NCBI GenBank assembly: GCA_000310025.1
Contig: FN649735.1
Span: 2,926,229-2,990,228 of the forward strand
Origin: Ectocarpus siliculosus
Lineage: Eukaryota > Sar > Phaeophyceae > Ectocarpales > Ectocarpaceae
DNA: 64,000 nt
Direction: 5' to 3'
Below the pieces are notes generated by a model. It did not search any database. It was given only the letters and a program-made list of their open reading frames with translations, and was not told the origin of the DNA. Below, in pieces: positions 56,865 through 64,000 of this stretch. The position numbers were made by a program, and so were the translations under genes. Positions within the stretch are counted from its first letter, which is position 1; each line of letters opens with the position of its first letter.

Positions 56865-57725
56865 TGACATTTTTGATCATGACCCACGGTCATGACCCGA
56901 TCATGACTCGGTTATGACTCCTGGTCATGACTCGGTCATGACCCTCACGCATGACCTACATAGTCATCGAGATGGAGTCATGATCTCGGTCATGATCTCG
57001 ATAATGGCCGGAGTCATGCCTCGTCCATGCTTTGGTCATGACTGGGTCATGCTTCGGTCATGACTTCCGTCAAGACTCGGCCATGGCCGTCATGACTACA
57101 TTAGTTCATCATCCCGTCGTGGCTGAGTCATGACTCGGCCATGACTCGATCATGATACAATTCTGGTGCTCTTTGGCAATGGCATGAATCCAGCTAAAAA
57201 CCCTAACGGTTACGCTAACCCTATCCCAAAGTCAAACGATAAGGTGCTAGATTGGCGCTCGCGGATAAATCCTACGTTGGTGTGCCGGCATGGCGCTACA
57301 GTAGGTTGGTGTTGATGAAACAACATCTAGGGGCGTGTGCCAGCATAGATGCTAGGTCGGCGTTGATGCATTAAACCTACGGAGACCATCGGGTCATGGT
57401 TGGGTCTCAATGGGTGATGATAATCATGTCCCGGTCATAGTGTACTCATCGTGACCCGGTGATGACACGATCACGACTCGGTAATGACCCAAACATGATC
57501 GGATCATGATCCAGCAGTCTGGCCGAAAATTCCCGCGAAAGCGAGGAACAACAACCTAATTCATGTCCCGGTCATGATCCGATCATTATCCGATCATGGT
57601 TGGGGCCACGGAACCGGGCCGTGGTCGAGATCGCAACCCATTCATGACCGGGTCATGACTCACTCCCGATCACCGGGTCATGATCCAGTCATGACCCGGT
57701 CATGATCGGATCATTCATGATTATG
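56865..57725. repeat. Dense TCATGA palindrome array
   Basis: Dozens of copies of the word GGTCATGACC or its variants (CGATCATGAC, CGGTCATGAC) are spread over about 860 bases, mostly 10-15 bases apart. The core TCATGA is its own reverse complement, so the array is symmetrical on both strands. No coding frame fits. Confidence 0.85.
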
Positions 57726-58193
57726 ATCACGGCTACGAGCTAGCCCAATATTGTCACGCATTGCACTGACGCCGCAAGATGTTTCACATCGGATTGGATT
57801 ATTTTGCGTGTTATCTTGGACTGCGTCTGCCAATAGAAGAAGAGTTGTTTCGGTCAGACCGGGTGTTTGATTCGCAAGCGCAGGTTGGCCGGTACGTTGG
57901 CCAAACTGTCTCTGTTCTTTTACCTGCAACTCAACCACTTTTGGTTACGTCCTTTTGCGCGCCTTGAGGTGCGCAAGCTCTCGGAGCAAGGCAGATTCTA
58001 CAACAGGTTAAACTGCCCAAAATTGTTGGGAAAAAAGGATGTCCCATCAACTCACCCAATACTGCATCAGTTCAGCGTGTGTTGCACTCATCCCTCGTGC
58101 CTACGAACCATCTCCCGCGGTGGCTTGCTGAAGCATCGAATACCTCGATTGTTTCCCGTCCGTGGTTTCAGCCCAGGACAGGAAATAGATTCG

Positions 58194-61100
58194 ATGGGGT
58201 TCAGCGACGATGAGTCCTCCGGCCTTGGCAGGGCCAGCGACGAAGTCCGCAGCAGCGGGAGCACAAGAGACGAAGAACCTACCTCCGACGCGGTGGAACG
58301 ATTGGCAAACCTTCAAGACTCGAAAGAAGAGGTGCCTGGTACGTTTCGAAATTGTTGACCCCGTGGAAAGAAGGTTAACAGGGGTACCGCTATCCCTGTG
58401 ACCCCCACGATTGATTTATCATGGAAGTTGGTTTAAGTTCTCATGAGCCCGAGTTACGTGCTGCTGCTGCTGCTGCTGCTGCTGCCGGCATCGAGAGGAT
58501 ATCTCTCAACAAGAAGTCAGTCCTCCTCCCGGCTCGCTAGCGGCTTGTTGCCTGGTGTTTGCACTTGCCATTTGACCTTTACGTTCACAATTCTGACGCC
58601 TCCTCTTCCACCGAGTAGTATGCCGGGCCGCTCTCTGGCGGTCCTTAGCTTGAAAAATTGCTCTACCATCACACTGTAGCGCGGAGCAACTAGATCACAT
58701 GTTTATATTTTTCCCGTAACATGCAAAAAAAAAAACGCTTCAAATCCATCTCTATCCACTCACAGCGTTAACGTTGTTATCTTTTTTCTCCAACGGCCGT
58801 TCGTTCTCAGCACCACCACCGAACACGCAAGATCTCGCAGCATCCAAACCAAAAAGTCGCCATCGAGACAACCCCGAGTGGTTGGCTTCTCTGGGGGAAA
58901 AGATCTCCGAGACACCTACTACCTCGAGCCCGCTCTGCACAGGTATGTTCCAAGTACCAGATTATAGCGATGATATTTGTTTTCATTTTGGCGCCTCCTC
59001 TTTCAAATGTGACGATGTTTGGCCGCTCTCCGGCGGCCATTCAGTCCCAATATTGCTGTCGCGGCGACGTTGGCTCGGAGTGGTGGGGTACTGATCGCAA
59101 ATTCTCCCGTTCGTGCAACGGCGATGCATTCTCAGCACCAGCGACCGCAGAAGATCTGGCGGCAGCTTCGAAAGACGGAGGGCGTCTTCGAGCCAACCCT
59201 GAGTGGCTGCCTTCTCTCAGCAACAACAAGGTCGTCGGGACCTCTGCCCAGGTCCCGCTCGATGCAGGTTAGTGTGACTCTCGGTTAGTATCGACAGCGC
59301 CGACTGGCAGACAACGAACGTCAGGCTTCCAAGTGTTTGTACCGTCCCATATTCCAATATTTTCCTGCTGTCAGTTGCGTTTCATGGTCCATGGATGCAT
59401 GTGCCGCGTCACCACGCAGGAGGAAGGCCACAAGAGACCTTTTTCTGCAGCTACCTTTTTTGTACAGGTTGCCCGAATTACTATAACGAGAAGGATTCCG
59501 TCGTCCTTTTCTCTTGTCGACCGTGCAGAATGTTGTTTCTTCAACGGGAATCGATCGCACAAGGCGGATAGTGCGAGAAAAAAGATCAGTTCGATTGACT
59601 TCACCAAGAGTCCAACGTACGTCCACAACGTCAGACGTTGCACAGGTTCTCTACTGGACCACTCAGCCGCAAGTATGTGCCATCACACCCAGATTGTATG
59701 AAGCATTGCAGTGAATAAGCATTCGGACACCGGTGGTGAAATTACAGCTTTCTGAATCATGCTCCTCGCCCAAAACTTACCATGGTCGGTCGTTCCCTTG
59801 TGGCCACTCAGTCGGAAAAGTTGCTGTCACTATGACTCTGGTATTGCGGTTTGTTGGTTTTCTTCTCCAACGATCGTACATTCTCAGCATCGCCAGGGAC
59901 AGCAGAAAACCTGGAGGCAGCTGCCAAAGACGGAGGACACCGTCGTGACATCCCGGAGTGGCTGGCTACTCTAAGTGACAAAAACATCGAGATTCCTACC
60001 TCGATCCCGCTCGATACAGGTGTGTACCATTCAGTGTCAGATAATGGTAGTGGACCAAAGCTTCGACGCCGACACGTTAGGTTGGCGTCGAACGTAAACT
60101 GTCAGCACCGCATGTCGAAAAGGATGACGTTATTTTCTCGTGCGAAGAAACTTGTTGCCGCCCCTTTTGTGTCGAGTTCGCGGGGTTTTGCAAAATGTTT
60201 GAACTCCCCCCGTGTACCCAATGTTGAGCTTCTAACAAGGTTCACTCCTGCTGCGAAGCACGTGCGCCACACCTCACCTTGCGGTGATGACGCTCTTTTT
60301 TTACGGCGTTGCCGCGTCCTCGGGATGAGGTTAATGGAGTTGCTTTGTTCAATAATCTGGAACTGCTGCAATTAATTGTATTCGTATCGTTTGCCGACGG
60401 GGGCGCTATTGGCTTGCGGCCTAACGCAACAGTGGTCGTTTTCCTCAAATGTTGTTGTCCGGTGCTATCTGCTGGCGGGGAATTCAGGAAAGCTTGAGGA
60501 CAGTTCGAAAGTCAGGGCCAGAAAGAAAATTCCAGACAACGGTACGTGCATTGAGGATGGTAAATTGTTGTCGATATTTTGAGCATATGTCCGCCCTCCA
60601 TTGATCTTTAGGCATTCTATGGCTTGACAAGACCGGTTATAGTTTTATCTTGGTTTCGGAACAAAGGCTCCGTGAGAACAGCTGATCAATCGTGTGATAA
60701 TATGAAAGTGGACATCAGTAGCTTGCTACGAAAGTCGACCACGTCGCCTCGATCCTCAAAACAATTATATCCACCTGGAACGAGATTGCTACTTCGCCCC
60801 CGTGCGCAGAGGCAAGATCCCCAACTTCTTCTCAATATCACGGGGGGTTATTCCGATAATTCAAAACGCCGTGCCTCAGTGACATGGGGGGACATCGGAT
60901 TTTTTCCCTGCGATCAACAAGAACGTTGGTCCAAAGTGAGAGGTCAACCTCCGCTAGATGCCCTTGTCCCCATGTTACGCAGTACGATCGCAAGTTGTTT
61001 CAAATTTCTGCCTCAACGCACAGGGGGTTGGTCCACCCTTAGTTCATGGTCGCTTAGTAGCTCGTCAACTCGTGTTCGACAGTTCTACATAGTTTCTGTT

Positions 61101-64000
61101 CGAACGTTGTTCGTGGAAATGTGCCAGGTGCAGCTTCAGCAGGATGCTTGGTTCGGTGAACTCCAATAGATAATCGTTAGCAACGACGTTGCAACAATTG
61201 TCCTGAACGGACCACACGACCTAGGCAAAGTGCGCATTTCGGTTTCGCTCAGCGACTCCATCAAGCTTGCGTCCGCCTTTGTTCGAGGGCAGCAAGGTTA
61301 GGGTCGACTTGGACGATGGATTAGGTAGATGATGAGGCGTTCCCCGAGTCGACACTGTTATTCCTGATGCTATGCATATGAACTGCTGCGCTCTTGACAT
61401 AATTTGGTCTTTGAAGACCGTCTACGAGCTGTTATCCAGGAGGGCGACAGAGAAGGGCTAGTTAATTTTTTGCGGCAGGTGAACGCGGAAGTGCGGCAGA
61501 AGCTGACGAAGACGTACGGTGGTACTGCCGACGAACATGAGGCCGACGAGGACGGTTTGTTCCGCAATACCTCTCCCCTCCTCCACGCGGCGATACGCGG
61601 ACAAGAGGAAGTATTTTCTCTATTGGCCGGTGCTATGGAGGTGATTACATTCGGGGAGAACATAGATGATGGCGTGTTTCCCATCAGCTTGTTCAGGTTT
61701 CCAGTACCGACTCCTTATGCCTCATTCTAGGAGTGCAAACACCTCCAACCGGCTGCGCCTTGCCGCGTTGACGGAATGGTGTGGGTAGTCGGCAGATACC
61801 TAGTAGTGGTCATAGCTCACAAACCATGCCAGTACAAAGAGTCGCCCGTAGATGTAGGGTGGAATCCTCCATCCTCGACGTTGAATCTGCACTTTCTTAC
61901 TGTTGTAGACGAGCGGGACTCTGGGCGCCGAAATGGTGAAAAGGGACGAGCACGGACGCACGGTGCCGCAGCTCGCGGCCCTCAGTGGGAATCAAGCAAC
62001 TTTCAGCCACGTGCGAAAATTGGTTCAGCGTCTCAGCACAAACGAGGTAGGCAGCGTGTCAATATTCCACTGCATCTTTCGCTGCGTAGGGGTGGAAAAT
62101 GAAACGCATGTGATGGTAGGGATCGATCTAGACAACAACTTTTTTCGAATTTCGTTTGGGAATATGTTTCGGAATTATTTTCGAAGAGAAGGTCGAGGTT
62201 TGGAAGCTGATCCTTCGACATCAATACTTCCTACTCGAAATCTCATCACTATTGCGAGAAAGGTCTAAACCAGTTTCAAACTTGTTTCTATCTGCAGTCA
62301 CCCTATGCATATATTCCTCAAGAATCACGATATTTCAAAGAGTAGATACGCATTTGAATCAACTGCACAGCGAGAATACTAATTTTGCGTCACTCCAAGC
62401 GTGCGCAAACTCTTCGAACTTTCTCCTCATAATTCCATGGTATTTTGTTCCCTACCAGATTCGTCAAATGCTAACGTCAACGGACAACAGTGGAAGCACT
62501 GTCCTCATGGCCGCTTTCAACAGCCGAAACACGGAAACGTTTCGAAGTGCTCTCGAGTTTACGATGGAGCAGCTCGACAGCCCGCAGGTATTTTCGCGGC
62601 GTATTGAACCGACTGCAACTCGCAGTGCAGGCGTGACAGATTGGATACTCGGCGAAGGCTCTCTGCAAACGTTCCTCTCGCGCCGGGCATCTTGAAGCAG
62701 TTCTGTTAGGCAGAAGCCTCGGCACGCCCCACTGCTTTATATGAGGTCGACACGAAGAAAACAACCCAGACGACATGCTGTCGAACAAGCAATGACCGCT
62801 ATGTGGTCTCGGTCTTGCCCCACCTGTTATCCACACGGGGAACACTCCATCATTTCAGTCTATTCCCGCATTGGCAGAACCACTTGCAAATAATTCATGG
62901 AAAACGTCCTAGGTTTTCCTATGGGTGCAGAGGTCAGGTGTTGGTTGTTGACATCAAAACACAACGTCGTGGCTGATGGCATAAAGCAGAACGATCATGT
63001 GCGGACGTTTGGAATGGCCTAATCAAAGCCCAAATATCAATTTTCGATATTCAACCTTCGCAGAAAGACAAAATTGAGATTCGCGAAAGCAAATGCCCGT
63101 GGCTGACATGTACGCAAATGAAGGTAGTCCGGCGTCTGAGTCTGACCTGCCTGACAAAGTAAAATGGTTGGAAAAATGTAGGTGACATCCTTTTGTATTG
63201 GTTTACGTTTGTCGACGTCCGACGTTATTGTTCCAGGTGCGGAAGCTTATCGAGATGACCGACAACGCCAACCAAACCCTGTTATCGATGGCGATCAACA
63301 CCAAGGACGCAGGGCGGTTTGAGTTCGCCCTGAACGAATGTCGACGGGCTGTTGGCTACACGAAGGTGATCCCAAGGAACCCCGAATTGAGCTTTTCTGC
63401 ACTCCGGTGTATTTCACTTCGGACGCAGTCCCTCGATGTGTGGGGCTCGATGGGATGGCATGTATGTCTCCAACGGTACGCGAATACTTTATTTCGTACA
63501 CGGGAAGGACAAAATGCAAACGGACCTTGTGACCGGATTCATTGACCCGGATTCACACCGCTGCACAGTGAGACCCAATTTTCGACTCCGTCATGTCGGG
63601 ATCTTGGGCACGTACTTACATTTTCGTCCACCCTTCCAGCTGGATGGGTTCACAGATAGCAAGGCGCCACCACGGAAGAAGCAAGACACCCCCCTCGAGT
63701 TCCGTTATAATCTTCTGTCGGAGGCGGTGTGGAGAAGCGAAAGCCTGAGAGTGTTCGAGGCCGTCTTGAAAGCTGCGGTGGAGGGTCAGAACATCTTCCA
63801 GGTCACGTAACTTATCTTCGAGGCGAAATCCCCAACTGTTACGGTATCACCGTCACGTGTGTTCATTTTTTTCCGTGCCCCGTCAGCGTGTGGTGACAAC
63901 GGAAACAGTCTTCTTGGGGGATATGTAGTTCGCTTTTTCTTGCTCGGGAACCGTGCCCTCCTTGCCCTGCTGCATGTGTGTTGCTCGTTCTACCCAATGT
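58194..64000 (+). CDS. Repeat-exon protein: three 44-residue repeats followed by ankyrin-like repeats, 3' end off the window
   Basis: Proposed exons: 58194-58338, 58811-58942, 59136-59267, 59888-60019, 60488-60541, 61417-61640, 61909-62046, 62459-62587, 63237-63365, 63640-63801, then beyond the edge. Phases run 1,1,1,1,1,0,0,0,0,0 and the frame stays open. The first exon is acidic and starts MGFSDDESSGLGRASDEV. Exons 2-4 encode three copies of a 44-residue repeat with LAA..K.....R.NPEWL..L. Later exons carry ankyrin-like blocks (DEHGRTVPQLAALSGN, DNSGSTVLMAAFNSRN, DNANQTLLSMAINTKD) and helices such as RLRAVIQEGDREGLVNFL. An extra small exon at 61253-61296 is possible but breaks phase. The start ATG is the first in an otherwise open frame, so an upstream exon cannot be excluded. 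Ankyrin repeats bind proteins; the role is unknown. Confidence 0.72.
58461..58484 (+). repeat. (CTG)8 microsatellite
   Basis: Eight perfect CTG units lie in intron 1 of the repeat-exon gene, 120 bases after its donor. Confidence 0.9.
58811..58942 (+). CDS. 44-residue repeat exon, copy 1
   Basis: A 132-base exon entered and left in phase 1. The acceptor is TTCGTTCTCAG and the donor G/GTATGT. It encodes (G)APPPNTQDLAASK ... RDNPEWLASLGEKIS ... PLCT. It is the most diverged of the three copies in its middle (KPKSRH). Confidence 0.78.
59136..59267 (+). CDS. 44-residue repeat exon, copy 2
   Basis: Again exactly 132 bases, phase 1-1, acceptor GCATTCTCAG, donor G/GTTAGT. It encodes APATAEDLAAASKDGGRL, then NPEWLPSLSNN and a tail ending VPLDA. 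The intron before it shares the block CGCCTCCTCTT...GGCCGCTCTC.GGCGG with the intron before copy 1, so the duplication included intron sequence. Confidence 0.8.
59888..60019 (+). CDS. 44-residue repeat exon, copy 3
   Basis: Also 132 bases and phase 1-1, acceptor ACATTCTCAG, donor G/GTGTGT. It encodes ASPGTAENLEAAAKDGGH, then IPEWLATLSDKN and a tail ending IPLDT. It is closest to copy 2 (shared KDGG and the PLD tail). Confidence 0.8.

Follow-up and report, generated by a model that had tools for sequence, protein, structure and literature searches.

What kind of gene carries three small exons of identical length in close succession, how did they arise, and what might the peptides that they encode do? 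These questions are raised by a 64-kb stretch of the Ectocarpus siliculosus genome (hereafter the window). The original prediction regarded the exons as one-exon-per-repeat units, perhaps of an undescribed type evolving by the kind of exon shuffling described for candidate immune receptors of brown algae.

Three repeat exons and the gene model around them

The three exons R1 (58811..58942), R2 (59136..59267) and R3 (59888..60019) lie on the plus strand, are 132 nt long each and begin and end in phase 1 (phase 1-1). TTCTCAG stands directly 5′ and GT directly 3′ of every one of them, and the phase 1-1 frame is open in all, so that the length, phase, positions and acceptors that had been predicted were confirmed in the sequence. 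Counted on the plus strand of the window, TTCTCAG occurs eight times, and three of these eight are the acceptors of R1-R3. Each exon encodes one related unit of 44 residues, as had been proposed: APPPNTQDLAASKPKSRHRDNPEWLASLGEKISETPTTSSPLCT in R1, APATAEDLAAASKDGGRLRANPEWLPSLSNNKVVGTSAQVPLDA in R2 and ASPGTAENLEAAAKDGGHRRDIPEWLATLSDKNIEIPTSIPLDT in R3. Alignment of the three units yields 14 invariant columns out of 46. PEWL is present in all three copies in the gene. The longer motif NPEWL, which had been described as common to the three, is found in two of them (IPEWL in the third), and two copies carry LAASK and LAAASK where the third has LEAAAK; the motif is thus shared, in a looser form than claimed. 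Given that the exons match each other at the DNA level with BLASTN E values of 1e-21, 5e-13 and 1e-7 (within a 3.5-kb region) and that their alignment scores lie 13.5 to 23.5 SD above those of shuffles, far beyond chance, their similarity is not accidental. We regard the three near-copies of one small exon as a real tandem exon duplication.

The repeat exons fit into a spliced gene model of 14 exons, with splice sites chosen by hand, which runs from an ATG at 58194 to a stop codon at 67901 and encodes 1323 amino acids with no internal stop. Since the window ends within the gene, which extends 3.9 kb beyond it, the contig was followed for a further 10 kb (L001), and coordinates were continued as L001 position plus 64000. 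The first coding exon, E1 (58194..58338, plus strand, 145 nt), encodes an acidic, Ser-rich N-terminus and ends in phase 1 at a GTACGT donor; its ATG is the sole Met codon in the open frame 57837-58358. R1-R3 are followed on the same strand by the non-repeat linker exon E5 (60488..60541, 54 nt, phase 1-1) and by exon A1 (61417..61640, 224 nt, phase 1 to 0), which resembles exons in two paralogous loci described below, C11 and C43. Downstream lie four phase 0-0 exons, also on the plus strand: the ankyrin-like exons A2 (61909..62046, 138 nt), A3 (62459..62587, 129 nt) and A4 (63237..63365, 129 nt), and A5 (63640..63801, 162 nt). The model closes with A6 (64040-64141), X1 (64752-65858), X2 (66117-66353) and X3 (66753-67901), all in continued coordinates. 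One donor in the model, that after X2, is GC. The introns are in phase 1 as far as intron 5 and in phase 0 from intron 6 to intron 13, which makes A1 the single asymmetric internal exon and leaves 11 of the 12 internal exons symmetrical. Because R1-R3 and E5 are all phase 1-1, 16 of the 16 possible combinations of including or skipping them preserve the reading frame; as a matter of arithmetic, the predicted frame neutrality holds, and copies could be gained, lost or skipped without damage to the frame of the ankyrin-like and pore parts. The splicing of R1-R3 itself is predicted from sequence.

Two kinds of simple repeat lie close to these exons. A perfect TGC triplet repeat of nine copies occupies window positions 58459-58485, within intron 1 of the gene model, and an 11-nt unit (TCATGACCCGG, with variants, and with periods of 22 and 24 as well) forms degenerate arrays at window positions 56874-57714, 0.5 to 1.3 kb 5′ of the model.

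The encoded protein and its paralogs

A Pfam scan of the 1323-residue product detected Ion_trans (PF00520) at residues 818-1040 with an E value of 9.2e-17 and 61.5 bits against a cut-off of 25, and PKD_channel with an E value of 2.4e-5 and 24.3 bits, slightly above its cut-off of 22.4. Ank_2 scored 24.8 bits (E 3.2e-5), below its cut-off of 27.3, over residues 243-303, encoded by the last part of A1 and a portion of A2; a match to Death_3 was at chance level. A search of PDB sequences returned 143 matches at E ≤ 0.01, of which the best 60 are all TRP-type channels. Inactive, which we take to be a TRPV-type subunit, came first (E 5.5e-12), followed by YVC1 and TRPM2, and the others among these 60 are TRPM2/4/5 and TRPV3/4/5. 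Judged by the best 60 of the 143 matches in this search, TRP channels are the Ion_trans family to which the protein is nearest. N-terminal ankyrin repeats occur in some TRP subfamilies only. The gene product looks like a TRP-like cation channel with ankyrin-like repeats, and the Ion_trans domain together with the TRP-type matches would place the 44-residue units at the N-terminus of such a channel, not in a ROCO or NB-ARC receptor. A gene known only as an odd exon array thereby gains a likely identity.

This gene, located on C10, appears to have relatives. When the pore exons were compared with the assembly (189,456,909 bases in 492 contigs; counts are lower bounds), 15 matches were found at E ≤ 0.001, including five long ones besides the gene itself, 50 to 68% identical, at C3:1014492, C11, C3:341495, C43 and C6:402411. 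The E. siliculosus genome thus contains at least six related TRP-like loci. The five paralogs were examined in 16 kb each; the exons mapped in them are those of the ankyrin-like and channel parts, which resemble their C10 counterparts to differing degrees. In an unrooted tree built from 628 channel positions, with 83 to 150 positions missing per paralog, C43 and C6 are split from the other four loci with a support of 99, and C11 and the C3 pair are split from C10 with a support of 79. At the pore match of the C3b paralog (C3:1014492-1014899, L003), one TAG lies within the open frame and may reflect a pseudogene, an intron or a sequence error. Two clusters of strong Ion_trans matches on another contig, at C17:2573041-2593472 and C17:5023796-5035308, are possibly genes with several tandem channel domains.

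We scanned the six loci for ankyrin-like exons with a profile of eight seed rows taken from the scanned loci themselves (two from C10, three from C3a, one from C3b and two from C43). Exons were admitted if they were 84 to 200 nt long, a multiple of 3, open, in phase 0-0 and preceded by a pyrimidine-rich stretch. The scan yielded two such exons in C10 (A3 and A4, both seeds), five in C11, five in C3a, three in C3b, eight in C43 and none in C6, and 15 of these 23 exons are exactly 129 nt long. Given that phase 0-0 and a length of 84 to 200 nt were conditions of entry and that the scan recounted its own seeds (eight of the 23 exons, one C43 seed row being a composite of two C43 exons), these numbers describe a pattern and do not test it, and the symmetry arises partly by construction. 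A2, A5 and A6 of the C10 gene were passed over. Ank_2 exceeded its cut-off of 27.3 in both paralog arrays scored, with 50 bits in C43 (six of its eight exons used) and 41.6 bits in C3a (five of five). Taken together, the exon scan and these two scores suggest that in this channel family each ankyrin-like repeat tends to have an exon to itself, with a copy number that varies among paralogs.

Distribution, origin and constraint of the 44-residue unit

Protein searches of the genome with the single units of R3, R2 and the copy on C12, in which the best candidates were scored, led only to the C10 gene and to C12:101926-102057; R1, itself outside the query set, was recovered by the R3 query. At least four copies of the unit are therefore present in the 189-Mb assembly, three in the C10 gene and one on C12; a large shuffled repertoire was not found. 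The lone exon, R4 (L002 4927-5058), is 132 nt long, with a TTCTTAG acceptor and a GT donor, and encodes PERL in place of PEWL, having lost the Trp. No other exon of the C10 gene was found around it in the readable part of its neighborhood, where N makes up most of two of the three loci (7456 of 10,000 and 4389 of 7,000 positions). Likewise, an exon DNA profile run with filters off against the window and 14 loci revealed no fourth, decayed copy in the gene, returning the four known copies and a next best E value of 1.2. Viral contigs, in one scan, gave 43 pattern stretches, none of which was confirmed as a relative of the unit. A mobile element spreading the unit was considered and rejected, as three genome DNA searches with exon and intron parts found the gene itself only, plus 77 nt of the C12 exon in one of them. 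The DNA search skips very common words and failed to recover a C12 flank sharing 71% identity with that of R2; having overlooked these known flanks, it makes only close further copies unlikely. As a separate observation, the peptide WDQNEIYRAPI is common to C12 (L002 ~4151) and to the region 5′ of the C11 paralog (L009 ~2516), and is perhaps part of a dispersed element.

A protein profile of the four units, run with filters off, did not detect the unit in the 16 kb of any of the five paralog loci (next best E 1.1), a region 5′ of which a copy would escape this search. With the repeat undetected in five of five paralogs, the channel apparently does not need it. The simplest reading is that the repeat was gained in the C10 lineage, the alternative being losses elsewhere.

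Similarity among the copies extends into their introns. We compared 185 nt upstream of each exon, at 58626..58810 for R1, 58951..59135 for R2 (beginning 8 nt past the end of R1) and 59703..59887 for R3. All six pairs of upstream flanks, that of the C12 copy included, are similar, with z scores of 2.9 to 13.2: the R1 flank scores 2.9 to 5.5 and the R2 flank 5.5 to 11.3 against those of the other three copies, and the R3 flank 2.9 against R1, 11.3 against R2 and 13.2 against C12. On the downstream side, the flank of R2 (59268..59517) is homologous to that of the C12 copy (158 of 224 aligned, z 15.5), and the other five pairs are unlike (z -2.4 to 1.2, with R1 compared over 40 nt only). Flank lengths were fixed after the BLASTN alignments had been viewed, and the alignment of introns that share 60 to 73% identity is uncertain. 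This pattern indicates that the duplicated unit comprised about 185 nt of intron and the exon, to which R2 and C12 add some 250 nt of the intron that follows. We conclude from these alignments that R1-R3 arose by duplication of the exon with flanking intron. Exon identity among the copies is 64 to 76%, and such divergence implies that they are not recent. Between the two C12-homologous flanks, about 180 nt of the R2-R3 intron (window 59521-59702) belong to neither C12 alignment.

Has the unit been under selection since? Over their full length, the copies show dN/dS values of 0.56 to 1.5, not significant in any of the six pairs (one-sided P 0.08 to 0.92). In the motif core, the columns of which were picked by eye after the alignment had been seen, pS (0.44 to 0.54) exceeds pN (0.16 to 0.30) in the three in-gene pairs, which are mutually dependent, with one-sided Fisher P values of 0.039 for R1/R2, 0.051 for R1/R3 and 0.016 for R2/R3; against the C12 copy the values are 0.13 for R1, 0.73 for R2 and 0.45 for R3. 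These results lean, weakly, toward the core of the in-gene copies being constrained at the protein level and the C12 copy being unconstrained.

The strongest competing explanation, to which we give appreciable though lesser credence, is that unequal exchange between intron repeats tripled an exon encoding part of a disordered tail, where the extra copies are tolerated without specific function and the likeness of their motifs reflects descent only. The full-length dN/dS values near neutrality are what this explanation expects, and it accords with the lost Trp of R4, the pairs of which show no significant constraint, and with the paralogs that do without the unit. It accounts less well for the retention of frame, 132-nt length, splice sites and PEWL in all three in-gene copies at a DNA divergence of 25 to 33%. 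In DNA alignments with free end gaps, moreover, the indels are exclusively of 3 nt in R1/R3 (two) and R2/R3 (one), and the length of 132 nt is retained despite them; the upstream introns of the same two pairs differ by indels of 1 to 9 nt. The R1/R2 alignment contains indels of 2, 1 and 2 nt too, and in the three C12 pairs lengths other than 3 nt occur as well.

We consider it improbable that the three frames are intronic remnants, left out of a real transcript that begins at another site or splices past them. Skipping would preserve the frame, the use of the exons is itself a prediction, and the lone C12 copy demonstrates that unattached copies exist; against this stand the consensus splice sites and matching phases of R1-R3 in a frame of 1323 residues, albeit one with hand-picked junctions, and a start codon with no other Met in its open frame.

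Proposed role and comparison with known systems

The original prediction took the unit to be neither a canonical LRR nor a canonical TPR, and our check against known domains agrees. The best Pfam matches (E 0.044 and 0.06) and the best NCBIfam match (E 0.21) all fall below cut-off, and the best PDB match (E 1.2) is not significant. An ankyrin origin was also considered and rejected: an hhalign comparison with the seed rows of the ankyrin-like exon scan gave a probability of 0.3% and an E value of 0.18, and the stretch contains no Pfam Ank match. An AlphaFold model of R3, poor in quality (mean pLDDT 62.8, pTM 0.20, four alignment rows), contains short helices at residues 5-12 and 23-29 and is otherwise coil. 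The unit may accordingly consist of two short helices, the first at about AEDLAAA and the second at about EWLATL, joined by a basic loop and followed by a linker rich in Ser, Thr and Pro. Since Pfam and NCBIfam yield nothing above cut-off and PDB nothing significant, it appears to be an undescribed repeat type. Among the open-licence matches listed, judged by titles and the openings of abstracts, no literature describes a PEWL-type repeat or TRP genes with one repeat to an exon. What seems to be new here is a tandem exon duplication, which we hold to be real, in a TRP-like channel gene and with an undescribed 44-residue unit.

We favor, with some reserve, a reading in which the tandem duplicates of exon and intron provide the N-terminal tail of a TRP-like channel with three docking units. 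One symmetrical 132-nt exon and its flanking intron DNA would have been tandemly duplicated in the 5′ part of the channel gene, and the N-terminal tail, cytosolic by analogy, would thereby carry three 44-residue units. Each unit could serve this tail, presumably flexible, as a short motif for docking to a partner protein and so for tethering the channel; the number of copies would then set how many binding sites exist. A broader and more speculative proposal, which we put forward tentatively, is that the N-terminus of this channel family is assembled from two sets of symmetrical one-repeat exons, ankyrin-like ones in phase 0-0 and variable number and, in one member, PEWL docking ones in phase 1-1, whose copy number and splicing might tune partner binding and hence sensing. 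Such channels would constitute a further class of exon-diversified receptors beside ROCO and NB-ARC-TPR proteins. If orthologs and transcripts agree, exon-by-exon diversification of repeats would extend beyond the proposed immune receptors to membrane channels, and the C10 gene would offer a small, tractable case of how a repeat array originates, with three copies, one outlier and duplicated intron flanks.

The idea that the gene is itself an immune receptor evolving through exon shuffling, like brown-algal ROCO and NB-ARC-TPR genes, is not supported and seems to us very unlikely: it has in its favor the shared one-exon-per-repeat design with symmetrical exons, which in the available passages on ROCO genes are 72-bp, phase-2 LRR exons (PMC11378527), but the spliced protein contains Ion_trans, the Pfam scan at E ≤ 1 includes no ROC, COR, NB-ARC, LRR or TPR, and only four copies of the unit, a lower bound, were found in the genome.

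The reading of the gene as a channel invites comparison with ankyrin-repeat TRP channels of the TRPV, TRPA and TRPN type. As in these, Ion_trans is C-terminal, and the best 60 of the 143 PDB matches are TRP-type; YVC1 and TRPM are their distant relatives. Ankyrin-like repeats, with Ank_2 below its cut-off in the C10 product and above it in both paralog arrays scored, would lie N-terminal to the channel. Unlike in these channels, 44-residue PEWL repeats precede the ankyrin-like part of the C10 product, and the ankyrin-like repeats measure about 43 residues, many on a phase 0-0 exon of their own. The NB-ARC-TPR genes of brown algae reportedly also have one exon per repeat, whereas NB-ARC and TPR are not among the Pfam matches here.

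TRP families are described as greatly expanded in brown algae, with 51 members in Sargassum fusiforme (PMC11085791), and the six or more related loci in the E. siliculosus genome match that description. The text of the same paper does not use the word "ankyrin", and the 12 of its 27 passages considered contain neither a repeat of the 44-residue type nor an exon architecture. As for function, inhibitor experiments point to an involvement of TRP channels in the calcium signals that copper induces in Ectocarpus (PMC5907779). A parallel in exon design is offered by the LRR-ROCO genes of brown algae, which, in the passages describing them, likewise devote a symmetrical exon to each protein repeat and multiply it by tandem exon duplication (PMC11378527). 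The two systems differ in their building blocks: 72-bp, phase-2 LRR exons joined to a ROC-COR core in those genes, and 132-nt, phase-1 exons joined to a probable channel core in the gene described here.
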